Part shown: piece by piece, positions 17,297 through 27,002 of the stretch
Numbering within the stretch: position 1 is the first letter of the stretch
Layout: every line of letters begins with the position of its first letter
Virus record (IMG/VR): IMGVR_UViG_3300042882_001391
Span: 1 to 27,161 of that record
Strand: one strand, 5' to 3'
DNA: 27,161 nt
DNA from: a virus
Notes under the pieces: model-generated
Seen by the model: the letters and a program-made list of their open reading frames with translations, nothing else
The model's database searches: none
What the model was told of the DNA's origin: nothing
Position numbers and translations under genes: made by a program

Positions 17297-18613
17297 TTAG
17301 TTCATCCCCCGTACTAAATTTTTAAATTGGGTAAATTGAGAATCGAACAATAGCTTTACTGTTCCGGTGGGGCCGTTGCGATGTTTAGCTAAAATTAATT
17401 CAGCTATTCCCGCGTCCGAAGTGTTGGGATTATAATAATCATCTCGATAGATCATCATTACTAAGTCCGCGTCTTGTTCAATTGAGCCCGATTCTCTCAA
17501 GTCTGAAAGCATTGGGCGTTTATTGGTGCGCTGTTCGACGCTACGACTCAACTGAGACAGGACAACTACAGGAACGTTTAAATCTTTTGCCATTCCCTTT
17601 AATCCCCGTGTAATTCTTGACAATTCTTGCACCCGATTATCACTTCCTCCGTCCATTAATTGCAGATAATCTATTAGAATTAAGCCTAACTTTCCATCGT
17701 TATCGGCTTGCAATCTTCGAGCTTCAGAACGCATTTCGGTGATGGTAATATTCGAGGTGTCGTCAATATAAATCGGTAATTCTGCTAAGGAACTAATTGC
17801 GGTTGTCAAAGGTTCCCATTCCTCTTGCTGAATGTTTCCTGAACGAATGCGGGTACTTTCAATTTTGGTTTCGCTCGATAATAGTCTTTGGACTAATTGA
17901 CCTTTAGACATTTCTAAACTGAAGACCGCGACGGGTAGCCCTTTTTTGGCAATGTTATATCCAAAATTTAAAGCCAAACTCGATTTGCCCATTGCAGGTC
18001 TTCCTGCCACAATAATTAAGTCGGTGTGTTGGAATCCTCCAGTCATAGCATCGAGGTCATAAAATCCAGAGGGGACACCGGGGGGAATCTTGCTTTCGCT
18101 CCGGTCTTCAATTTCTTGAAAGGTATCAATTAAAGTTTCACCAATCGAAACTAAATCCTGTTGTGATTTTGATTGGGAAATATTAGCAATTTGTTCCTCT
18201 GACTTTTGGAGAATTGTCTCTAAAGGTTGACTGGTATCTTCTGCCAATTCAATAATTTTATGGGCAGATTCAATTAGGTTTCTTCGAGTTTGCTTATCGG
18301 CAATTAACAGCCCGTATTGATCAATGTTAACTGCTGAAACTGTGCGGTCTAATAATTGGGTTAATCCTAATTGTCCCCCGGCTTTTTCAAGTAATTTCTG
18401 ATCGGATAACCAGGTAGTGACGGTCATTAAATCCGTGGTTATTCCCTCGGAATGTAATGCTAAAGCTGCTTTGTAGATTGTTTGATGCGATCGCAGGGAA
18501 AAAGATTTAGCAGTTAGCGTTTCCGCAACTCGCCCCATAGCTTCGGGGTCTAAGAGAATCGCTCCCAAAACGGCTTGTTCTGCCTCAACGTTTTGCATGA
18601 TTATTGTTTCCAT
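17297..18613 (-). CDS. dnaB: Replicative DNA helicase DnaB
   Basis: 438 residues, close to the usual length, with both DnaB domains. The N-terminal domain (1-105) begins with 'VEAEQAVLGAILLDPEAMG'. The RecA-type motor has Walker A GRPAMGKS (204-211), the catalytic Glu in FSLEMS (E234), Walker B LILIDYLQ (311-318) and the arginine-finger region KHRNGPTG (410-417). It forms a hexamer that unwinds the fork. No intein or frameshift is seen. The start overlaps the upstream stop by one base (TAATG), so translation is coupled to the loader-like gene. Confidence 0.95.
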   Translation of the reverse strand: METIIMQNVEAEQAVLGAILLDPEAMGRVAETLTAKSFSLRSHQTIYKAALALHSEGITTDLMTVTTWLSDQKLLEKAGGQLGLTQLLDRTVSAVNIDQYGLLIADKQTRRNLIESAHKIIELAEDTSQPLETILQKSEEQIANISQSKSQQDLVSIGETLIDTFQEIEDRSESKIPPGVPSGFYDLDAMTGGFQHTDLIIVAGRPAMGKSSLALNFGYNIAKKGLPVAVFSLEMSKGQLVQRLLSSETKIESTRIRSGNIQQEEWEPLTTAISSLAELPIYIDDTSNITITEMRSEARRLQADNDGKLGLILIDYLQLMDGGSDNRVQELSRITRGLKGMAKDLNVPVVVLSQLSRSVEQRTNKRPMLSDLRESGSIEQDADLVMMIYRDDYYNPNTSDAGIAELILAKHRNGPTGTVKLLFDSQFTQFKNLVRGMN

Positions 18614-19200
18614 TATTTCGCTCCATTTAAGTTTTTATTCATTTTTGTGGCGATCAGGTTATTTAGAAATTCCTGATTTTTTAACTTCTGTTCCTCTGAA
18701 ATCTGTGGCTTGAGTCCATTGGGCTTGAACTCGATTTGCTCACGGGGGATGACCTGCGTGGGACGCTCAAATTCTCGCGGGGCTTTTCGGTAGGCTTGCC
18801 AATGAGTCTTGAAATCGTTGCTCAGGTAGTTGAGTTGGGTACTTTCAATCGACCCAAGGTGAGACATCCCTCCGAGTTGAACGATTGCATATTGACTCGC
18901 ATCGTCTAAATTATTCAACGGGAGGCGTTTAGCAAGCGATTCTAGGCATCTTGACCAACAGTTACTTACTAACTCACGTTCGGATTCTTTAACGAGGCTT
19001 ACAAGCTCTTTTCCCGTGGGACACTTGCTAAGGTTGAAAATTGCCTCACGGATTGCAGTCTCAAATTCTTCAGCTGATAACTCCTGAGAGAGTTTGTCGA
19101 ACCAAATTTCATATTTGAGTTCGGTGAAAATCGCGTCGGAAAAATTTTCTTTCAGGTTTTCAATTCCCTGATCAAAGATTTCATCGTTAAGCTCGGTCAT
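18613..19200 (-). CDS. Helicase-loader-like protein, 195 aa
   Basis: A 195-residue protein between an initiator-like gene and dnaB, the place of lambda P or SPP1 G39P-type helicase loaders. The N-terminal half 'KYEIWFDKLSQELSAEEFET' and 'CPTGKELVSLVKESERE' resembles the helical domain of those proteins. A later 'QLGGMSHLGSIESTQLNYLS' with 'DFKTHWQAYRK' recalls a widespread phage/plasmid family with a 'ALGGW...FLRKxFxxAY' signature. Its role as loader is inferred from position and weak similarity. It lies between the initiator stop (19203) and its own ATG with a 2-base gap. Confidence 0.6.
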   Translation of the reverse strand: MTELNDEIFDQGIENLKENFSDAIFTELKYEIWFDKLSQELSAEEFETAIREAIFNLSKCPTGKELVSLVKESERELVSNCWSRCLESLAKRLPLNNLDDASQYAIVQLGGMSHLGSIESTQLNYLSNDFKTHWQAYRKAPREFERPTQVIPREQIEFKPNGLKPQISEEQKLKNQEFLNNLIATKMNKNLNGAK

Positions 19201-19202
19201 GG

Positions 19203-20378
19203 TTAGGCTCCTTTTTGTTCGCGTTTGGCTCTCAGGATGGCGAGGCGTTCATCCCTAGAAAGTTCGCTGATATTGCGGGTCTGGGTTGATTTGCCACCGC
19301 TAAACTTGGCTTTTGATTTCAACCACGACTCGGCATCGGCAAGGATTTTTAGTGGCTCGGATTTCCATTTCTGAGCAAGGGAAGATTTGGCATGGTTTGA
19401 ATTACAGTCTTTGCCCCTGTAATGAGTGCATTTGCTTAATAGCCCCCTGTAATATTCCAAAAACTCAGGGTCGGGCGATCGCTCACCTCTCATGGCTCCG
19501 GTCGCCACAATTGCGTTCCAAGTTTTCATATTGTCTGCTGTTGCGTCCGTTGGTAGAAATCGAGGATCGGACTCGACGGCGGCGGAATGTCTGATCACCG
19601 GATTAAGATTTTGTTCAGGTCGGTGATTCTCTTTTTGACTTTGCTGTGTAGCAGAGTCCTCGGTAAGCTCTTTCCCCTGGTCTTCGTTTGAAATCAAAAC
19701 GGCTTCGTTCTGAATCCCCCCCTCCTCCGATTCCCCTTGGGGGGTAAGGGGGGTATTTTCTGGAGTCTTTTCTGAAGTCTTTTCTGAAATATCTATATAA
19801 GGAATAGGAAATTGGGATTCACCACTCTGGTAAATTGGGATTCCCGATGATGGTAAATTGGGATTTACCATATTCAGTAAATTGGGATTCCCGATTTCCT
19901 GTAGATTGGGATCTACCATTTGGGGTCTAGTTTTCCGTGGGCGAAAACCCACTGATTTTTGCCTGGGTTCGATATCGGAAATTAGCTCATCTACCTTGCT
20001 GTGATTCCGAAAGTAGAAAGTTAACCCCGACCTCCGGTCAACGTAAGAACAGTAGTAATTACAACCAAATTCCGATCCGCTAGATTTTGCTTCGTCATAC
20101 TGGGTTTTGGAGTTGTAACGGACTCCAATCTTGTCAAACCCAGTCCTAAATTCTTCTTTAGAAAAAGCGAGTTCCTCAACCCAACTATCCCCAAGCCTGT
20201 AGTCCTGATGTCCGTTTTGAGGGGGTTCTAAAAACTTATAAAACCCGTCTGGATACTTTGCGAAACGATACTCAAGTTGCATCATAAGAATCGTGGCTAC
20301 TACGCTCCCTGTTTGCTGTCTGAGTCCGGGGATATAGGGGACGGCTTCTGCAAAGGCGGCTAGAATAGATGGTTTCAT
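19203..20378 (-). CDS. Replication-initiator-like protein with intragenic iterons, 391 aa
   Basis: I choose ATG 20378 because it overlaps the upstream TGA (ATGA); a start at 20396 is less likely. The N-terminal about 140 residues form a winged-helix-like domain (SVVATILMMQLEYRFAKYPD ... WVEELAFSKEEFRTGFDKIG ... YFRNHSKVDELI), as in phage initiators. The middle, about 150-260, is a disordered linker rich in Pro/Asn/Gln/Glu that contains the DNA repeats at 19807-19925. The C-terminal part is basic. Such layout (wHTH, linker carrying the origin, helicase loader next, then dnaB) matches lambda O-P. Role inferred. Confidence 0.7.
   Translation of the reverse strand: MKPSILAAFAEAVPYIPGLRQQTGSVVATILMMQLEYRFAKYPDGFYKFLEPPQNGHQDYRLGDSWVEELAFSKEEFRTGFDKIGVRYNSKTQYDEAKSSGSEFGCNYYCSYVDRRSGLTFYFRNHSKVDELISDIEPRQKSVGFRPRKTRPQMVDPNLQEIGNPNLLNMVNPNLPSSGIPIYQSGESQFPIPYIDISEKTSEKTPENTPLTPQGESEEGGIQNEAVLISNEDQGKELTEDSATQQSQKENHRPEQNLNPVIRHSAAVESDPRFLPTDATADNMKTWNAIVATGAMRGERSPDPEFLEYYRGLLSKCTHYRGKDCNSNHAKSSLAQKWKSEPLKILADAESWLKSKAKFSGGKSTQTRNISELSRDERLAILRAKREQKGA
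19752..19806. other. AT-rich asymmetric block next to the iterons, possible DNA unwinding element
   Basis: This block carries two exact 12-bp direct copies AGTCTTTTCTGA (19764-19775 and 19776-19787) followed by AT-only sequence such as ATATCTATATAA. One strand is pyrimidine-rich over about 30 bases. In lambda the equivalent AT-rich, strand-biased block follows the iterons and melts first. Here the matching order supports an origin, but function is inferred. Confidence 0.6.
19807..19925. repeat. Five iteron-like repeats inside the initiator gene
   Basis: Five copies of a core ATTGGGAT (starting at 19811, 19834, 19857, 19881 and 19905) are spaced 23, 23, 24 and 24 bases. Copies 2-3 and 4-5 form a 47-48 base super-repeat. 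In copies 2 and 4 the core is flanked by a GGGATTCCC dyad, in copies 3 and 5 by GTAAAT/ATTTAC and GTAGAT/ATCTAC dyads with paired compensating changes. The encoded peptides are NPNL, IPIY and SQFP, so the same DNA is read in all three frames. This indicates selection on DNA. Likely initiator-binding sites of a replication origin. Confidence 0.8.
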
Positions 20379-20653
20379 ACAGCCCCCACTTCCCACTTAC
20401 TGGGATGAACTAAGGTATAGTTTTCCGTTTCGATATCACCGCTAATTAAACCGAGCTTAATTAGCTCGCGCAACGCAAGCCTTGTCTGCGTTTTTCCAGA
20501 CGCGCGTCGTCTGGAAAAACATTTTGACGTGATTTGATCAACCGTTGGAAACGTCTCGTGATTTGCAATATGGCAAACGATCGCAAAATAGACTCGGAAT
20601 GCTTCGGCGGACATTCCAATGTCATCCAATTCTTCTGAAATTGAAATCTTCAT
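20375..20653 (-). CDS. Winged-helix DNA-binding protein, 92 aa
   Basis: A 92-residue protein, first in the leftward replication operon. 'GMSAEAFRVYFAIVCHIANH' then 'FPTVDQITSKCFSRRRASGK' and 'TRLALRELIKLGLISGD' read as helix-turn-helix with a wing, a MarR/DnaD-type winged helix. The middle RRRASGK is strongly basic. Its TGA overlaps the ATG of the initiator-like gene. It may regulate or assist replication. FFT not applicable; family not assigned. Confidence 0.65.
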   Translation of the reverse strand: MKISISEELDDIGMSAEAFRVYFAIVCHIANHETFPTVDQITSKCFSRRRASGKTQTRLALRELIKLGLISGDIETENYTLVHPSKWEVGAV

Positions 20654-20782
20654 ATTTTCCTCAAAATTTTTAGGGAAAATGATGATCAGCTTCTTCGACC
20701 ATCTCCCCGTTTGGGTTGCTCTTCCGACGGGGAATTTTCCCCGATTTTCTGCGAATCATCACAGAAAATTAATAAACAATTT
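20654..20782. promoter_or_regulatory. Structured leader/control region upstream of replication operon
   Basis: This stretch holds three possible hairpins. TCCCCGT (20704-20710) can pair with ACGGGGA (20727-20733). GGGGAATTTTCCCC (20729-20742) is a self-complementary hairpin that shares bases with the first, so the two exclude each other. ATTTTCTG (20744-20751) pairs with CAGAAAAT (20762-20769). Mutually exclusive hairpins are the hallmark of an attenuator, but no T-run terminator is clear. No strong promoter for the leftward operon is visible. Confidence 0.5.
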
Positions 20783-21004
20783 ATGACTGCAAAAATCGCA
20801 ATCGCAATCGCTATCGCTATTTTTTTCATTTCATTATTTAGGAAACCAAAGGGAATGCTTGAATCTTCCCTCTGGTATTTAGGTGTTCTACAATCTGCCC
20901 GTTCAGTTTCATCCCATAGGCATTTTCCTTTTCGGGTTTTTCCCCTTACGATTTACAAAGCCGATCCAAGGCTTGTTGTTTCAGGGGGTGCAGGAATCTG
21001 GTGA
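20783..21004 (+). CDS. Doubtful small ORF with membrane segment, 73 aa
   Basis: An ATG at 20783 opens a 73-residue frame starting MTAKIAIAIAIAIFFISLF, a hydrophobic helix coded by a 6-base tandem repeat (AATCGC x3, TATCGC; 20794-20817). The remaining residues are basic and show no family. It has no good ribosome binding site and overlaps the upstream part of the XRE gene's region. It could be a small membrane protein or a chance frame from a simple repeat. Confidence 0.3.
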   Translation: MTAKIAIAIAIAIFFISLFRKPKGMLESSLWYLGVLQSARSVSSHRHFPFRVFPLTIYKADPRLVVSGGAGIW

Positions 21005-26567: not shown

Positions 26568-27002
26568 ATGGACATTAAAGAATTAGATTCTGGCTCAAAG
26601 TTTGTGAGTGAAAAAGGCGTTATTTTACTCTCACAATTGAACCCAGATAATTTCAAATACTGTTTAGAATACAGTTTAGCTCATAAATCTACGGTTGAAA
26701 TTAACGAAAAAGCCAAAATAGTAAAACCCGATTATTCGGATTTATTAAAAGCTGGATTCTACATGGGATTAATTGGCATTGTGGAATTGTTGGTGCATGA
26801 TGGCGTTCTAAATGTTGAGGATGCCGTGATAATAGCAAATAAAATATTTAACGGTGAACTTGACAACGTTTTAAATATCCCAATGTATCTTACTGAATCA
26901 AGAGCTTTTCAATTTTTAATTGATTCAATCAATGCAAAAAGATTTGTAGATGATGAAATCAATAAGGAAGAAATTGTAAATAGTTTGAACAGTCTTATTT
27001 AA
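26568..27002 (+). CDS. Unknown helical protein, 144 aa
   Basis: A 144-residue protein with a helical, Leu/Ile-rich profile: 'LLKAGFYMGLIGIVELLVHD' is a hydrophobic helix, perhaps amphipathic rather than membrane-spanning, and 'EDAVIIANKIFNGELDNVLN' follows. Family unknown. Its message would end at the hairpin at 27047-27071, which overlaps the convergent gene. Confidence 0.6.
   Translation: MDIKELDSGSKFVSEKGVILLSQLNPDNFKYCLEYSLAHKSTVEINEKAKIVKPDYSDLLKAGFYMGLIGIVELLVHDGVLNVEDAVIIANKIFNGELDNVLNIPMYLTESRAFQFLIDSINAKRFVDDEINKEEIVNSLNSLI

Follow-up and report, generated by a model that had tools for sequence, protein, structure and literature searches.

What is an array of short, regularly spaced repeats doing in the middle of a gene for a replication-initiator-like protein? 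The question is raised by virus record IMGVR_UViG_3300042882_001391, analysed over positions 1 to 27,161 (27,161 bases, hereafter the window), from which a 10-kb query matches the Planktothrix phage PaV-LD with 88% identity over 61%. On its minus strand an operon runs from a stand-alone gene, sD, through the initiator gene and a loader-like open reading frame (ORF) to the gene of a DnaB helicase, and the repeats lie in the hinge between the N-terminal domain and the C-terminal part of the initiator. Judged from sequence comparison, this array is very probably the recognition part of a phage replication origin, carried within the very gene that encodes the initiator, in its hinge. A first-pass annotation of the window had proposed an origin of the lambda-like type, and the predicted anatomy is in keeping with it: the repeats and the AT-rich block lie between an N-terminal and a C-terminal domain, and the loader-like gene and that of DnaB come next. 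The initiator belongs to type A of four N-terminal types (A to D) distinguished among related loci, which are numbered with the prefix L.

The repeat array and the adjoining AT-rich block

Five copies of ATTGGGAT start at positions 19811, 19834, 19857, 19881 and 19905, 23–24 bp apart as first described, and the members of a 19-nt repeat family begin at 19807, 19830, 19853, 19877 and 19901. The 47–48 bp super-repeat that had also been described holds for two of the distances between every second copy (47 and 48 bp), the third being 46 bp and outside that range. A single further copy occurs in the window, at 26877 on the opposite strand; 1.8 copies are expected over the whole window, and 1 of 100 shuffles reached six copies anywhere, a score that leaves clustering out of account. 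The array carries two short dyads (Table 1), and alternating site types are a feature of A1/A2 arrays. The change of both dyad arms together, pointed out previously, is present in the window but not in the relatives L100 and L016, where the matching site is GTAGATcccgATTTAC and a single arm is altered.

Beside the array lies the annotated AT-rich block, in which two exact 12-bp copies of AGTCTTTTCTGA stand in tandem (19764–19775 and 19776–19787, found by eye). It is followed by a run of C residues, the C-run, and the 66 nt preceding this run are 68% AT against 54% across the gene. The same rise beside the C-run is seen in all nine sequences measured (68–77% AT over 66 nt, against 52–55% for the genes). 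The rarity of the C-run was discarded as evidence; it is the sole such site in the window, yet with two mismatches allowed one or more such sites turn up in 44 of 100 shuffles.

Constraint on the DNA beyond the protein

The five copies are translated on the minus strand as VDPNL, GNPNL and VNPNL in one frame, GIPIY in a second and ESQFP in the third (frames 1,1,1,0,2), so that all three codon frames are used, as the annotation had stated. Its further claim, that protein constraint is insufficient to explain the repeats, was borne out by a control in which the protein is kept and synonymous codons are redrawn (1000 shuffles, 12 representative hinges from 23 initiators, hinge limits drawn around the repeats themselves). 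The window hinge holds 22 repeated 9-mers, against a shuffle mean of 0.60 and a maximum of 9, and 11 of the 12 hinges beat all 1000 shuffles. When the best 10-mer family was scored instead, one mismatch being allowed, the observed value was reached by none of 200 shuffles in eight hinges, by 1 in A5, by 2 each in C1 and D, and by 16 in C4. This family occupies all three frames in nine of the ten A and C representatives and two frames in C4. Relatives that had lost the repeats were sought, and all five A-type representatives (of 15 A-type loci) retain above-control arrays; in L100, L016 and L111 the best 10-mer is present in four copies, not five.

Synonymous change is also lower in the hinge and in the AT-rich block with C-run than in the DNA-binding domain, a comparison at the codon level that the annotation had suggested. 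When the window is paired with L100, L016 and L111, the synonymous rate (dS) of the domain is 0.63, 0.64 and 1.79, with a ratio of nonsynonymous to synonymous change (dN/dS) of 0.05, 0.09 and 0.06, whereas hinge dS is 0.30, 0.17 and 0.64 with dN/dS of 0.76, 0.98 and 0.61. The 22 codons of AT-rich block and C-run show 1, 1 and 0 synonymous differences in these pairs, and 0 or 1 per pair over six pairs. In the type A hinge and AT-rich block it is thus, as far as these small samples indicate, the DNA that is conserved and not the protein.

These data bear directly on the proposal that the repeats are a protein feature only, namely a repetitive disordered linker. Single-frame repeats in the B and D hinges (SLDLN and SSPTLP) would suit it, but the A and C arrays spread over two or three frames, nine of the ten A/C representatives beat the synonymous shuffles, as the B and D representatives do as well, and hinge dN/dS lies at 0.6–1 with low dS in the three informative window pairs. 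For types A and C the synonymous-codon control contradicts a linker, and this explanation is hardly credible.

Two cassettes joined at the C-run

Relatives were gathered by a DnaB-anchored scan which gave 55 loci; 44 were examined and made 46 together with the window and PaV-LD, the 11 omitted (L120–L124, L127–L132) being of 27–38% identity. The initiator is readable in 34 of the 46, the window and PaV-LD among these, while in five the contig ends short of it (L085, L097, L103, L104, L110) and seven have other upstream genes (L113, L114, L117, L119, L125, L126, L133). Many contigs are near-identical, and counts are therefore not of independent events.

Among the 34 initiators the fused N-terminal domain is of type A in 15, B in 9, C in 9 and D in 1, and pairwise alignment of different types gave no match with E below 0.05. 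The C-terminal part, classified by eye in 23 initiators, occurs as variants alpha1 (8), alpha2 (3), beta (11) and gamma (1). Types A and B are both found with alpha1, alpha2 and beta, type C with alpha1, beta and gamma, and type D with alpha1. The hinge sequence is specific to the N-type, and when 12 pairs were compared block by block the switch in identity fell at the C-run (23 sequences were anchored on the peptide that the C-run encodes). The C-terminal variant matches the type of the N-terminal half of the loader-like protein in all 23 cases inspected, gamma being one case; in the PaV-LD loader the N-half is beta-type and the C-half resembles that of the window. Between the window and L011 the arrays differ at 4 of 138 nt, and L105 shares both dyads, whereas the upstream stand-alone gene is sD in the window and sB in L011 and L105. 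Near-identical arrays under different stand-alone genes mean that it is the fused domain with which the array goes. On this comparison one cassette is made up of the N-terminal domain, the hinge repeats and the AT-rich block, which travel together, the C-terminal part travels with the N-half of the loader, and both cassettes join at the conserved C-run.

Such exchange beside the array, at the C-run, might recommend the array as a recombination hot spot, a homology patch for module exchange with no role as an origin. The junctions nevertheless fall at the C-run, outside the repeats, and because the repeats differ among N-types they provide no homology between types; the probability of this alternative is very small.

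From the anatomy, the co-inheritance and the precedents named below we infer the following sequence for the origin. The N-terminal domain would bind the dyad-bearing iterons, the resulting nucleoprotein would open the adjoining AT-rich block, and the C-terminal part would recruit the loader-like protein by its N-terminal half, and that protein would deliver the phage DnaB helicase. The hinge peptide would be mainly a spacer, and this would be why one DNA word is tolerated in three frames.

In known systems iterons often serve both as origin sites and as control sites. The repeats might be operators for transcription or copy-number (incompatibility) control instead of a replication start, a function that the size of the dyads fits equally and to which the LexA-like winged-helix model of sD, encoded just upstream, lends some colour. 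Against this, the array lies mid-gene, ~0.5 kb downstream of the start, beside an AT-rich block and before the loader-like and DnaB genes; no other array-like site was found in the window within three mismatches, and the dyads upstream of the operon differ in sequence. Operators as the sole function are improbable.

Site motifs in nearer and distant relatives

The A-type dyads take the form GTARAT-N4-ATYTAC and/or GTAAAT-N11-ATTTAC, while those of other types are GTTTAgattTAAAC (B), ACGGAcaaaCCGT (C1), ACGGaaaaaCCGT (C3) and GTAGCcccacGCTAC (D), and C2 has the repeats GGGAAACCC. In 17 loci these motifs co-occur with their own N-type, an agreement that is descriptive, as the motifs were defined on the same 17 loci. 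It has exceptions, namely one A-like N4 match each, outside the hinge, in L102 and L016, L111 (A5) having no N4 match but an N11 one, and L112 having no motif at all.

GTARAT-N11-ATYTAC is found in cyanophage hinges A3–A5 and again in the hinges of A-domain homologues on Cupriavidus (L150) and Methylovorus (L151) plasmids. Over gaps of 0–20, GTARAT/ATYTAC gave 3 matches in 166.6 kb, the plasmid loci included, two of them being the plasmid hinges; the N11 dyad arose in 2 (L150) and 5 (L151) of 20,000 mononucleotide shuffles, uncorrected for the 21 gaps. Homologues of domain A are encoded on four plasmids altogether (L150, L151, L152, L153). The words GTAAAT, ATTTAC, GTAGAT and ATCTAC occur 3 times in the L150 hinge against 0.09 expected and 4 times in L151 against 0.38, but once in L152 (0.62 expected) and not at all in L153 (0.20 expected). 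The repeats in the best stretch of each gene were matched by 20 (L150), 0 (L151), 149 (L152) and 1000 (L153) of 1000 synonymous shuffles. The L150 and L151 genes, on Cupriavidus pRK1-3 and Methylovorus pMsip01, are annotated 'hypothetical protein', and pMsip01 also has a separately annotated replication initiation protein.

Aphanizomenon phage CL131 encodes a B-domain relative (33% identity) adjoining its helicase gene, and 0 of 1000 synonymous shuffles reach the best stretch of its hinge repeats. The C3 core ACGGAAAANCC was first noticed in cyanophage C3 hinges and in Bacteroides phage L168, and then counted in six later-added phages, which are six of the 18 further matches listed, PaV-LD aside. 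Hinge copies number 3 in L168, 2 in L169, 3 in L170 and 1 in L173, with one extra copy outside the gene in each of L168 and L173, and none was found in nine loci without a type C initiator. L168, L169 and L173 are phages of related hosts. A gene-wide synonymous control was reached, of 300 shuffles, by 0 in L168, 0 in L169, 1 in L170, 0 in L171, 8 in L172, 100 in L173 and 1 in L174.

A number of observations weigh against an origin in the hinge, or against the reach of the comparison. GC skew points neither way, as it makes no clear turn within the window, and the PaV-LD curve dips locally near 4 kb but reaches its global minimum at 36 kb. The C4 hinge of L112 failed the repeat control (290 of 1000 shuffles), and the B and D arrays keep to a single frame, so that a repeated peptide contributes there. 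Recent recombination could be a further cause of the low synonymous change near the C-run. Two of the four plasmid homologues of domain A, L152 and L153, have no dyad site. ACGGAAAANCC is absent from L171, L172 and L174 and from the cyanophage C1/C2/C4 loci L035, L093, L094 and L112; where present in L168, L169, L170 and L173 it is read in a single frame, as TENP or TEKP, and a shared peptide may lie behind part of the agreement in distant phages. The site cores were also noticed prior to counting, which makes the agreement partly post hoc.

Stand-alone domains upstream of the initiator

Stand-alone relatives of the B, C and D domains (sB, sC and sD) are encoded just upstream of the initiator, with 29 genes in 27 of the 34 loci: sD in 12, sB in 4, sC in 9, sD with sC in one (L111) and sD with sB in one (L112). 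Six loci have no such gene and one is unreadable (L018, contig start). Identity to the fused types is 28–50% (34% for sB of L112), and the sole same-type pair, sD with the fused D of L109, is 28% identical. The stand-alone genes are, by this measure, mostly under purifying selection: of 12 pairs, 10 have a dN/dS of 0.16–0.32 (dS exceeding 2.6 in two of the 10), one has 0.59 and one is saturated; fused domains give 0.05–0.15 in eight of nine pairs, with one saturated. Mere debris is for that reason an incomplete account of them, though relics do exist. Remnants that retain both ends of sD lie ahead of sB in L105, sC in L096, L102 and L108, and C3 in L084, L088 and L107, and in L073 an sD-like start is joined to an sC-like end. 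Relic leader ORFs of 18–34 amino acids (aa) stand at 2767 in L105, 2836 in L096, 2809 in L108, 2824 in L102, 3201 in L084, L088 and L107, and 1134 in L073; perhaps they serve translational coupling.

The window sD is modelled as a winged helix (predicted local distance difference test, pLDDT, 82), closest among the matches listed to LexA (Z 10.1, root-mean-square deviation 2.9, 77 aligned). A Foldseek search gave no match at E 0.001 or better, and the absence of lambda O among the matches listed for this fold excludes nothing. The peptide CGTFKRNKVIE, a putative recognition helix in our reading, is the same in fused B and in L016 sB, which overall are ~50% identical; the L011 sB departs from it at two positions and the L112 sB at many.

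Dyads TTTTCTG-N10-CAGAAAA and CGGGGAA-AA-TTCCCCG are conserved upstream of the operon (about 20653–20800 in the window) and were seen in L035, L093, L087, L105, L084, L088 and L107, whether sD is intact or not. A role as sD operators was rejected, as they are kept where sD is only a relic (L105, L084, L088, L107).

Two readings of the stand-alone genes remain, as leftovers of earlier cassettes or as genes retained for a regulatory role or for hindering rivals. A specific form of the latter would make them competitive origin-binding domains, nuclease-free counterparts of the Odn protein described below, which would occupy the iterons of rival phages of another type, block their replication and so drive cassette swapping. 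This is compatible with the 29 genes in 27 loci, the low identity of the L109 pair, purifying selection and the conserved CGTFKRNKVIE, but we consider it rather unlikely.

Gene identities and features of the window

The coordinates are collected in Table 1. The 391-aa length first given to the initiator holds for the ATG start; the GTG start gives 397 aa. Of the next genes, previously named as loader-like and DnaB, the DnaB assignment is clear, and the middle gene is a putative loader by position and co-inheritance alone. Its matches are weak and unnamed (DUF6475 at 2.9e-05, under its cut-off, and phrog_10105 at 1.2e-07), and sD has weak PHROG matches to replication initiators (phrog_270 at 0.0013, phrog_678 at 0.015).

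Table 1. Positions and strand of the features of the window discussed in the text.
Feature	Position	Strand	Remarks
DnaB-type replicative helicase, 438 aa	17297..18613	(-)	Pfam DnaB_C 8.7e-109
Loader-like protein, 195 aa (putative)	18613..19200	(-)	N-half type tracks initiator C-terminal variant
Initiator ORF	19203..20396	(-)	397 aa from GTG, or 391 aa from ATG at 20378
Initiator C-terminal part, variant alpha-1, proposed loader contact	19206..19733	(-)	C-variant comparison
C-run CCCCTTACCCCCCAAGGG, homology switch point between swapped halves	19734..19751	(-)	Variant forms in 23/23 initiators examined
AT-rich block with TTATATA run, proposed duplex-unwinding element	19752..19806	(-)	Very low synonymous change
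Iteron array, five sites around ATCCCAAT, two short dyads	19807..19919	(-)	Spacing 23/23/24/24
Dyad GTAAATcccaATTTAC	19853..19868	(-)	Symmetric
Dyad GTAGATcccaATCTAC	19901..19916	(-)	Symmetric
Type A N-terminal domain, proposed origin-binding domain	19932..20378	(-)	Comparison and selection data
Stand-alone winged-helix protein sD, 92 aa, overlaps initiator start	20375..20653	(-)	Weak hits, model, selection

The window initiator has no Pfam or PHROG match at E 0.1 but may nonetheless be kin to O-like families. Its PaV-LD relative of type C matches phrog_345 'replication initiation O-like' (9.3e-22) and a type B relative matches 'DnaD-like helicase loader' (3.7e-05). HTH_36 scores under its cut-off in the scanned C proteins (6.7e-4, 4.4e-5) and D protein (3.4e-3), with no match in the scanned A and B proteins, and RepA_N matches neither the window at E 0.1 nor five fused relatives at E 1. 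A sequence search of the PDB with the initiator gave nothing at E 1, host-genome searches no relative of the initiator or the loader-like protein, and annotated phages no match to the whole initiator at E 1e-5 or to domain A at E 0.1. No fold is claimed for the type A domain because its AlphaFold2 model, from four close sequences, has a pLDDT of 45.

Comparison with known replication systems

In the portions of the literature available to us, lambda (gene O, ori-lambda), P22 and L (gene 18) carry iterons and an AT-rich region midway along the initiator gene, the iterons being distinct and each set lying within the corresponding gene (PMC7466680, PMC6022878, PMC8022706). The window resembles them in this and apparently in the next gene, which in those phages is gene P or a helicase gene. 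It differs from lambda O in that its protein has no O family match, non-aligning DNA-binding domains share one C-terminal part, and stand-alone domain relatives lie upstream.

The RepA_N plasmid pSK41 and the hybrid pPR9 are a second parallel, as far as the available text of the source describes them. The pSK41 initiator has a winged-helix domain at its N-terminus that binds boxes midway along rep, a central part serving as linker and a separate C-terminal domain, and in pPR9 a phage-like N-domain of pfam13730 (HTH_36) with its origin replaces that of pSK41 while the C-terminal domain is kept (PMC5703833). Mid-gene boxes, linker and joint swap of N-domain and origin (a candidate origin here) are common to the window group; these are, however, staphylococcal plasmids whose C-domain binds primase, and stand-alone domains are unmentioned in that part of the text (PMC5703833). 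For the PLE RepA, the available text describes a competitor, ICP1, carrying Odn, whose DNA-binding domain mimics that of RepA (PMC8263062). There the origin is intergenic and Odn has a nuclease domain, whereas the stand-alone ORFs of the window group end about at the end of the binding domain.

PaV-LD ORF004–ORF007 (NC_016564.1) share the gene order of the window, with ORF005 annotated 'replication initiation protein' and sD upstream, but have a type C domain, ACGGAcaaaCCGT-type repeats and a beta C-terminus; the part of the feature table shown for NC_016564.1 has no repeat or origin feature. The ORF005 hinge (L035) contains CAACGGATTGTCC, and phage L gene 18 is described, in the accessible part of the source, with repeats TGTCCAACGGA (PMC8022706); the two are possibly a shared element. 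PaV-LD DnaB (L035 3659–5398) has a long insert after LRESG, absent from the window DnaB, which by eye looks like an intein. An 867-aa DnaB ORF at L012 7632–10235 has the same kind of insert, and L105–L107 match the window DnaB only up to residue 382, which suggests that they share the insertion site.

Origins within initiator genes and exchange of a domain together with its origin are known already, from lambda, P22 and L, from pSK41 and pPR9 and from PLE RepA, going by the available parts of these sources (PMC7466680, PMC6022878, PMC10343443, PMC8022706, PMC8263062, PMC9836094, PMC5703833, PMC7157519); what is unusual here is the presence of stand-alone domain relatives upstream. Among the literature matches listed, mostly outside subscription journals, no title or abstract mentions a PaV-LD origin or stand-alone origin-binding domains.

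Implications

The PaV-LD group of bloom cyanophages gains a concrete, mappable candidate origin, in which natural swaps already separate the DNA that is recognised from the loader that is recruited. Hinge repeats above synonymous expectation provide a simple computational test by which candidate origins can be picked out when phages infect other hosts, while the stand-alone domains pose a testable question, that of competition at replication origins.
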